From IMG/VR virus record IMGVR_UViG_3300024320_000003, positions 114,738 through 178,737 of that record: a stretch of 64,000 nt of DNA; one strand, 5' to 3'. Positions 62,349 through 63,722 of the stretch are shown here, piece by piece. The position numbers and the translations under genes are program-made. Numbering within the stretch: the first letter of the stretch is position 1; each line of letters begins with the position of its first letter. Source of the DNA: a virus. A model generated the notes under the pieces. It made no database searches. It was given only the letters and a program-made list of their open reading frames with translations, and was not told the DNA's origin.

Positions 62349-62805
62349 GAGAACCGGAATTACATGCTCTACATTTGATCTGTTTCATGCAGGTCATGTA
62401 AAGATGCTAGAGGAAGCTAAGAAAGAGTGCGATTATCTAATAGTTGCTTTACAAACAGATCCCTCAATTGATCGACCTGATTCCAAGAACCCTCCTATCC
62501 AGTCTTTAGTCGAAAGATACATTCAAGTTAAGGCTTGTAGATATGTAGATGAAATAGTCCCTTACCAAACTGAAAAGGATCTCGAAGATATTTTCGCAAG
62601 TTTCGATATTGATTGTAGAGTAATAGGTATCGAATATAAAGATAAGAATTTTACAGGAAAAGATACATGTGTAAAGAGAGGAATCGAGATCATATATAAT
62701 AAAAGAGATCATGGTTTTTCAAGCACAGAACTCAGAAATAGAGTATGGGAAGTAGAGCATGTAAAAAGTTTAGAATTAATTGAAAAAAAATTCAATAAAA
62801 GTTGA
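62338..62805 (+). CDS. Cytidylyltransferase-like nucleotidyltransferase (TagD/RfaE type)
   Basis: 155 residues. TCSTFDLFHAGHVKMLEEAK holds the HxGH motif (HAGH), and HGFSSTELRNRV the ISSTxLR motif of the family. It would activate a phosphorylated sugar or polyol with CTP or ATP, for example glycerol-3-phosphate or heptose-phosphate. It adds to the nucleotide-sugar genes (RmlC, RmlD-like, SDR, PMM). A middle-type promoter begins at its stop. Confidence 0.88.
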   Translation: MQNKRTGITCSTFDLFHAGHVKMLEEAKKECDYLIVALQTDPSIDRPDSKNPPIQSLVERYIQVKACRYVDEIVPYQTEKDLEDIFASFDIDCRVIGIEYKDKNFTGKDTCVKRGIEIIYNKRDHGFSSTELRNRVWEVEHVKSLELIEKKFNKS

Positions 62806-62831
62806 AACTAAATTAAAGATATTGGTATAAT
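62803..62831 (+). promoter_or_regulatory. Middle-type promoter (TGAAAC-N16-GTATAAT) for the histone-like gene
   Basis: Perfect match: TGAAAC 62803-62808 overlapping the preceding stop, 16 bases, GTATAAT 62825-62831, 36 bases before the ATG. Confidence 0.65.
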
Positions 62832-62867: not shown

Positions 62868-63050
62868 ATGACAAATTTATTATCACAAATCCAAGAAACC
62901 CTGGATTCAATTCAGGACGACGCTACTAAGTTTAACGAAAAAGGAAACAAAGCAGCAGGAACAAGAGTAAGAAAAGGAATGCAAGCTATCAAAGCGTTAG
63001 CGCAAGATGTAAGAGTTGCAGTTTCTGAAGCAAATAAAGCAAAAGTCTAA
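62868..63050 (+). CDS. Histone H1/Hc1-like DNA-binding protein, 60 aa
   Basis: 60 residues. TKFNEKGNKAAGTRVRKGMQ followed by AIKALAQDVR is typical of the small H1-like proteins of Bacteroidota. It probably compacts DNA or binds RNA and may help take over the host nucleoid or protect phage DNA. It has a perfect middle-type promoter and is followed without a terminator by a structured RNA candidate, with which it may share a transcript. Confidence 0.85.
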   Translation: MTNLLSQIQETLDSIQDDATKFNEKGNKAAGTRVRKGMQAIKALAQDVRVAVSEANKAKV

Positions 63051-63545
63051 GGTTATATACTAACCAAGGAAAACGTTCTTTAACATATTGTAGAAGGCAC
63101 ATTACCAGATTGATCATCTAGAATGTGAGTGTATTGCCGAAAAAATCCTAATGGAAAGAGGGATTAAGGCACACTAAGACACCGAACAAGTTTCGGCTCG
63201 ATTGCAGAAGTGAGTAATTGAGACTCGACAGAGTAGATAGTGGTAGATCGGAAAAGATAAATCTAAACTGATTTTTCCGAGAGCATTGCAAGCAGCCGAA
63301 AGGAACCCTTGCCGTAAACTGACTGAATAATCCTATCTTATAGGGGATAAAGTACAACTAAAGCCATTGTGGCGCTATAACGAGATTAACCATCTTGAGT
63401 AGAACTTGAAATAATAGTAAAGTTAGTTGGTATGCAGTATATCATACAATAAGACGATCTTCTAAGGCTAGTATACCTTAGTACACGATCCTTCTATGTT
63501 ATAACCCAGAACCTAGTGAAAGCTAGGTTCTTAGGGGGTAAGTAA
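63051..63545 (+). ncRNA. Large structured RNA candidate (about 500 nt)
   Basis: No convincing gene is found, yet hairpins run end to end: GGTTA 63051 with 63061; GTGT/GCC (63129-63138) with GGC/ACAC (63168-63174) around AATCC-GGATT; CCGAA 63182 with 63192; CTCGATT 63197 with 63216; TCGGAAAA 63248 with 63273; GCAAG 63288 with 63308; CCTAT 63332 with 63340; GCCA 63363 with 63370; GTATG 63430 with 63443; CTAAGG 63462 with 63476; and a 9-bp stem AGAACCTAG 63508 with 63523, extended by ACCC/GGGT. Giant phage RNAs such as GOLLD and ROOL are of this size, but I cannot assign a class. More hairpins continue to 63699. Confidence 0.55.
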
Positions 63546-63565
63546 TGATAAAAACAGTTTAAATC

Positions 63566-63709
63566 ATGAACAGTGAACAGTCAAACAACGGAAACACTCA
63601 GATAAACCACGAAAGAGCAAGTCTGAATAGTAGAGTTTCTAGGTTTAGAATTCTTGGTCAAACCAAGAAAGTACAATGGGACGGTAGAAGAAGAAACCGA
63701 ACTATTTAA
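63566..63709 (+). CDS. Possible small basic protein, 47 aa (or part of the structured RNA)
   Basis: 47 codons from ATG 63566: NSEQSNNGNTQINHERASLN then a basic end (RFRILGQTKKVQWDGRRRN). The DNA also folds well (TTCTTGGT 63651 with ACCAAGAA 63662; CGGT 63682 with ACCG 63696; TCAGA 63598 with TCTGA 63622), so it may instead be the 3' part of the RNA. Unresolved. Confidence 0.3.
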   Translation: MNSEQSNNGNTQINHERASLNSRVSRFRILGQTKKVQWDGRRRNRTI

Positions 63710-63722
63710 ATATTATTAAAAG

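Follow-up and report, generated by a model that had tools for sequence, protein, structure and literature searches.

A structured RNA of a T4-like phage as a predicted strand-swapped, doubled form of manA RNA

A conserved structured RNA in the phage contig

Analysis of the window, which forms the final 64 kb of a 178,737-base virus contig, revealed a structured RNA that we regard with little doubt as a doubled manA RNA. Taken as a whole, our explanation, in which a stand-alone non-coding RNA of a T4-like phage contains a duplicated manA, forms a pseudo-dimer and acts in trans, appears likely. The contig also encodes a terminase, a portal protein, a tail sheath protein, a DnaB-like helicase and a ribonucleotide reductase, which identify the virus as a T4-like myovirus; the phage host is probably a member of the Bacteroidota. 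The RNA, its pairing with the inter-copy helices P1 and P4L, the duplication in relatives, the leader sequence and the genomic contexts in relatives were all computed, and the features are listed in Table 1.

The gap at 63051-63565 had a folding energy of -133.2 kcal/mol, compared with -107.5 +/- 6.1 in dinucleotide shuffles (z -4.2; 0/100 shuffles were as good), and the antisense strand gave a weaker signal (z -2.4). Hc1-guided and pattern scans yielded nine relatives (L003, L004, L009, L033, L204, L205, L210, L245 and L287), which aligned with the window RNA across the full length of 63074-63503; the ten sequences correspond to fewer independent lineages, with the window, L003 and L287 close to one another. 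The structure drawn from this alignment contained 109 pairs, with 96.6% of cells paired and two-sided changes in 49 pairs across the ten sequences. Scored on the same alignment that was used to draw it, this structure showed a covariation of 0.345 versus 0.183 +/- 0.008 in shuffles, a value that 0/500 shuffles reached, and slid controls gave 0.05-0.09. RNAalifold, run separately on the alignment, returned 102 pairs, 52 of them covarying. A frame scan of the gap found no reading frame of at least 70 aa inside the RNA. The segment 63074-63503 is thus almost certainly a real structured RNA.

These results bear out the initial annotation, which had proposed a structured RNA without a convincing long gene and had named a lack of covariation, or a conserved reading frame in homologues, as grounds for giving the proposal up: the homologues showed covariation and no conserved frame. 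The at least eleven hairpins counted there were exceeded by 22 covariation-tested helices. The extent of roughly 500-670 nt was right in describing a long structured RNA, but its limits had to be moved to 63074-63503. Likewise, the 9-bp perfect stem (AGAACCUAG/CUAGGUUCU, ~63508-63531) exists but lies just outside the RNA core, while the 8-bp stem probably corresponds to 63248-63280, where UCGGAAAA can pair with UUUUCCGA.

A search at the DNA level through records of phages and plasmids found no homologue, and the doubled RNA was not found in 201 sampled Flavobacteriaceae genomes under stricter filters without a positive control.

Table 1. Predicted features of the doubled RNA and its surroundings (window positions).
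Feature	Position	Strand	Support
Promoter of the Hc1 gene, sigma-70-like, possibly also of the RNA	62802..62831	+	TTGAAA-18-TATAAT, consensus match only
Upstream neighbour, gene for the Hc1 histone H1-like protein	62868..63050	+	Pfam PF07432, E 8.6e-23
Doubled manA-type RNA, entire conserved RNA, ~420-430 nt	63074..63503	+	Full-length alignment with homologues
boxA-like element CGTTCTTTAACATATTG, core GTTCTTTAACA at 63075-63085	63074..63090	+	16S-leader profile, boxA consensus
Outer closing stem P0	63085-63097 with 63490-63502	+	Four pairs with two-sided changes, 91.5% of cells paired
Hairpin H0, counterpart of the manA 5' hairpin	63098-63103 / 63122-63127	+	Three pairs with two-sided changes
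manA copy 1 (P1 5' strand, P2a, P3a with three hairpins, P4 strands, P5a)	63129..63312	+	R2 matches in L210 and L204
manA copy 2 (P2b, P3b with three hairpins, P4 strands, P5b, P1 3' strand)	63313..63486	+	RF01745, R2
Inter-copy helix P1	GUGUA 63129-63133 with UACAC 63482-63486	+	49/50 cells paired
Inter-copy helix P4L	AGAUCG 63245-63250 with CGAUCU 63455-63460	+	60/60 cells paired, four pairs with two-sided changes
Inter-copy helix P4in, probable	GCAU 63283-63286 with AUGC 63432-63435	+	Complementary in ten of ten, invariant
Conserved hairpin 3' of the RNA, without a U tract	63505..63537	+	In L004, stem kept and sequence different
Conserved 47-aa basic protein gene, outside the RNA	63566..63709	+	Orthologous frames in L287 and L004

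Relationship to manA RNA

Rfam at the gathering level identified only tRNAs in the window, as did ARAGORN. At the relaxed level, the sole match was the manA RNA RF01745 at 63298-63489, with 27.4 bits (E 7.9e-5) against a gathering score of 55.2 bits; the scores in L033 (32.7), L009 (27.5) and L004 (24.9 bits) were likewise below this value. The initial annotation had recognised no class-specific motif; the manA motif is in fact present twice. The covariance search that it had suggested was negative for GOLLD, ROOL, HEARO, RNase P, tmRNA and group I introns, all of which, together with group II introns, were ruled out by the lack of an Rfam match, and positive for manA at the relaxed level only.

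The manA core pattern TGACYGAAN{10,26}GGGGATAARGT matched 92 viral stretches, mostly single manA RNAs, and matched twice in each of L204 and L210, with the two sites ~180 nt apart. We also used a covariance model, R2, that was derived from 32 single manA RNAs with the doubled RNAs excluded. The single-copy structure showed two-sided changes in 42/47 pairs on an alignment fitted to that structure, and R2 gave 75 matches over the 83 loci tested, its training members included. In the 178.7-kb contig, R2 found one match only, namely copy 2 of the window RNA (24.3 bits, E 6e-7; E 8.9e-5 across the whole contig). Both copies were detected side by side in L210, with 26.7 bits (E 6e-6) for copy 1 and 21.4 bits (E 2e-4) for copy 2, and in L204, with 24.6 bits (E 1.6e-5) for copy 1 and 21.0 bits (E 2e-4) for copy 2. 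Copy 1 of the window gave only a 1.8-bit fragment; as it lies beyond the reach of R2, it was assigned by full-length homology. Copy-1 matches of 11-12.6 bits in L004, L009 and L210 did not exceed false matches on tRNA genes (up to 13.8). The duplication rests on L204, L210 and the full-length homology.

Direct repeats were found at equivalent sites of both copies in these two relatives: an exact 17-nt repeat, TATGACCGAATAATCCC, 181 nt apart in L210, and a 14-nt repeat in L204 (0/200 shuffles in each case). In the window, the same comparison found no comparably long identity kept between the copies. The RNA most likely arose when a manA-type RNA was duplicated in tandem. The literature searched, whose coverage was incomplete, contained no mention of such a doubled manA.

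Several other homologue searches were set aside. A first model, R1, made from cyanophage sequences only, failed to detect the doubled RNAs at E 1, the patterns GACTYGACARAGTAGA and GTTAGTTRGTATGCAGTA matched mostly by chance, AGAGCATTGCAAGYA was too loose, and L060, which came from a pattern scan, appears to be a protein gene. Scanning genomes with GAGCATTGNAAGYANCCGA added only L287.

A further form was observed in four loci (L191:2911-3203 on the minus strand, L197, L207 and L269), where the manA RNA is ~293 nt long because of an internal addition of ~140 nt and, close to its 3' end, contains another motif resembling GUCUGAAUAAU. It is perhaps another enlarged or partly doubled form.

Genomic context

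The RNA has the same orientation as the upstream Hc1 gene, whose promoter candidate matches at 11/12 positions with an extended -10. No terminator was found between this gene and the RNA in the window, as the initial annotation had also stated. The same terminator-free arrangement, with the RNA directly 3' of Hc1, occurs in L003, L004, L009, L033, L245 and L287, and the two are probably co-transcribed in this clade. The histone neighbour itself, from whose transcript the initial annotation had suggested that the RNA may be processed, turned out to be incidental, as in L205, L204 and L210 the RNA is surrounded by tRNA genes or has a promoter of its own. In L205, the order is tRNA-Ala, 9 nt, the RNA, 2 nt and tRNA-Gly; in L033, it is Hc1, the RNA, a U-tract hairpin (terminator) and tRNA-Ala. 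Neighbouring tRNAs are also present in L009 and L204. A Bacteroidota-type promoter, TTTG-N20-TATATTTG, is located 35 nt upstream of the RNA in L204 and L210, where the pattern occurred at 3 sites versus 0.16 expected and at 1 site versus 0.06 expected, respectively. L204 has a separate promoter of this type for the gene after the RNA. In L005-L008, whose Hc1 is 88% identical, a tRNA occupies the place of the RNA and the doubled RNA is missing, which indicates that the position after Hc1 exchanges stable-RNA genes. The changing neighbours among the relatives show that the RNA moves as a unit and is not tied to one protein gene.

On the 3' side, the 47-codon frame suspected in the initial annotation of bounding the RNA proved to be a conserved small protein gene beyond its 3' limit, with 5/6 differences from L287 falling at third codon positions. 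A gene for a MarC family membrane protein follows in this phage at 63723-64000, truncated by the contig end.

We considered whether the RNA is a cis-regulatory leader, a riboswitch that would respond to a ligand and regulate what lies downstream, here the gene of the 47-aa protein and then MarC. Rfam labels manA as cis-regulatory, and manA RNAs have been described from phages, at sites that may be the 5' UTRs of metabolic genes (PMC2864571). Several cyanophages have a gene start 20-50 nt past manA, the 47-aa gene of the window starts 62 nt past the RNA, and a protein gene comes next also in L003, L287 and L004. A cis-regulatory 5'-UTR placement is accordingly possible in the window, but it does not apply to L033, L205 or L204. 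The downstream content differs wholly between relatives, being the 47-aa gene, an unrelated 110-aa gene (L009) or a terminator and a tRNA (L033), whereas L205 has a tRNA only 2 nt downstream and L204 a gene with its own promoter. Many single manA RNAs, moreover, lie between tRNAs (L212, L214, L232, L238 and L196). We therefore regard the leader reading as improbable. The tRNA-flanked, terminator-followed or own-promoter placement in the relatives makes a stand-alone phage RNA, similar in kind to rRNA and tRNA, probable, and we consider it likely that the RNA is stand-alone rather than a leader.

Single manA RNAs elsewhere were found at distances of 11-160 nt from tRNA genes, in many cases with a tRNA gene on either side (L212, L214, L232, L238, L196, L199, L249, L194 and L255), and these tRNA-adjacent RNAs sit badly with the cis-regulatory label of Rfam. 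Others directly follow phage tmRNA genes of the permuted type (L187:3113-3263 on the minus strand and L228:1832-1982 on the plus strand). A manA RNA near tRNA and tmRNA genes has also been described on the Bifidobacterium megaplasmid pMP7017 (PMC10832533). The cyanophage members lie between protein genes, and a leader role is possible for them.

Architecture of the two copies

All helices of the proposed fold are nested. The outer part consists of P0, H0, P1, which joins copy 1 to copy 2, P2a, and P3a with its three hairpins; in the inner part, P4L encloses P4a, P5a, P2b, P3b with its three hairpins and P4b, and is followed by P5b. The manA junction of P2, three-hairpin P3, P4 and P5 closed by P1 is present with covariation in the outer unit, while the inner unit lacks a P1 of its own. 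P4a was poorly aligned across the ten sequences.

An alternative would be two ordinary manA RNAs side by side, folding and acting independently like tandem riboswitch aptamers. Tandem aptamers are common, and P2, the three-hairpin P3 and P5 are indeed separate in each copy. The inner P1 strands, however, reach at best 2-4/5 pairs within either copy, whereas copy 1 pairs with copy 2 at 5/5 in nine of the ten sequences, which ruled out closure by two separate P1 helices. In L210, GUAUA/UAUAC replaces GUGUA/UACAC, and P1 contains only this one covarying pair. The copies are linked as well by P4L through its four covarying pairs; this helix was absent from the earlier drawn structure, was first found by unprompted RNAalifold, and pairs in 10/10 sequences. 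We consider the independent-copies reading quite improbable, slightly more so than a leader. The two copies are instead predicted to swap their P1 and P4 strands, and the product would be a covalent, strand-swapped pseudo-dimer that the outer stem closes. P4in, an invariant candidate helix, would probably complete a symmetric exchange of the P4 strands.

The boxA-like leader

Flavobacteriaceae 16S leaders contain AGTTCATTAACATATTG after the promoter. Upstream of 16S rRNA in L308-L337, we observed a strongly conserved AGTTCATTAACATATTG(AATTGACAGCG) element common to the leaders of this family, which is likely the Bacteroidota boxA. A profile of nine distinct Flavobacteriaceae 16S-leader sites placed its best site in the 64-kb window, both strands included, at 63074-63090 (18.5 bits, next 14.9), and the best site also coincided with the 5' end of the RNA in L204, L205, L210, L033 and L009. 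The core GTTCTTTAACA fits the boxA consensus GYTCTTTAANA (PMC5725501) exactly in the window, with one mismatch in L009, L205, L204 and L210. The rRNA antitermination complex of E. coli is recruited by boxA, which is both necessary and sufficient for this step, and pre-rRNA is enclosed by leader-trailer helices (PMC10250234). Judged from sequence, the putative boxA of the window RNA is fairly likely to be functional. No boxA was found near single manA RNAs in the loci examined.

A boxA-like AGTTCTTTGACTTA was also seen inside phage tRNA arrays, at ~2109 (+) in L210 and ~8280 (-) in L204, and it suggests antitermination of phage stable-RNA operons. Just 5' of the boxA in the window, a small hairpin, GGUUA-UAUAC-UAACC, occupies 63051-63065; in L004, L033, L245 and L009, this site has other sequences that still form a hairpin. 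This hairpin may reflect the boxB-like arrangement of rrn leaders, or may be left over from the end of the Hc1 mRNA.

The entire RNA could also belong to the 3' UTR of the Hc1 mRNA and serve to stabilise this message or regulate its gene, as would be allowed by its terminator-free position directly 3' of Hc1 in the window and six relatives. This is very improbable, given that L205, L204 and L210 have a tRNA or a dedicated promoter upstream and that L005-L008, with an 88% identical Hc1, carry a tRNA at that place and no doubled RNA.

Proposed function

For the stand-alone RNA, we infer a transcript, its processing, an action in trans and a target. The host rRNA antitermination complex (NusB/S10) would bind the boxA of the transcript, and boxA antitermination would allow the long untranslated transcript to be completed and protected from Rho. 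The RNA may then be cut out at the outer stem by nucleases of the tRNA/rRNA type. Once folded, it would act in trans during infection, as a pseudo-dimer whose two core sites are related, and the translation apparatus would be its most likely target or partner. This action on translation, to which the neighbouring tRNAs and tmRNA point, is put forward tentatively.

In a broader proposal, manA-class RNAs would not be riboswitches but trans-acting RNAs in phage takeover of translation that work as strand-exchanged homodimers, and the window RNA would be a natural fused dimer under host rRNA-type antitermination; we think this rather unlikely. The manA RNA motif, reportedly described by Weinberg et al. 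in 2010, has been a riboswitch candidate since that year without a ligand. The doubled, strand-swapped form, the rRNA-type leader and the tRNA flanks argue that at least this manA branch is a stand-alone RNA, and they make trans action of manA and dimerisation of the single form directly testable. The RNA would also show a phage non-coding RNA under an apparent host rRNA antitermination signal.

Comparison with known systems

The initial annotation had noted a likeness to GOLLD and ROOL. Like them, the window RNA is phage-borne and complex and lies near tRNAs in relatives (PMC12286853), but it is smaller (~420 nt), has a different fold and shows no sequence or model match, and since GOLLD, ROOL, HEARO and OLE gave no Rfam match even at E 5 and manA was matched instead, it is not a family member, and a cage-forming giant ornate RNA is extremely improbable. 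OLE RNA is a natural ornate RNA that works as a homodimer (PMC12286853); whereas that dimer consists of two molecules, the two copies here are covalently fused with exchanged strands, and there is no homology. Tandem riboswitches (glycine, glnA) are likewise built from a single RNA domain that occurs twice in succession, but the copies of the window RNA share helices and are not separate aptamers.

The rRNA leader with its boxA and leader-trailer helix resembles the window RNA in that a boxA or boxA-like element is followed by a long-range stem that closes around an untranslated RNA. In contrast, the phage RNA has no rRNA similarity, and its closing stem is 12-13 bp rather than over 30. The closest similarity is to manA RF01745, with which it shares the core ..GACUGAAUAA..GGGGAUAARGU.., a five-way junction P1-P5 with a three-hairpin P3, T4-like phage hosts and, in many manA members, a tRNA neighbourhood. 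Unlike manA, a single domain of ~190 nt, the window RNA consists of two fused, cross-paired copies of ~420 nt in all and has a boxA-like leader, and several of its relatives are not in a leader position.
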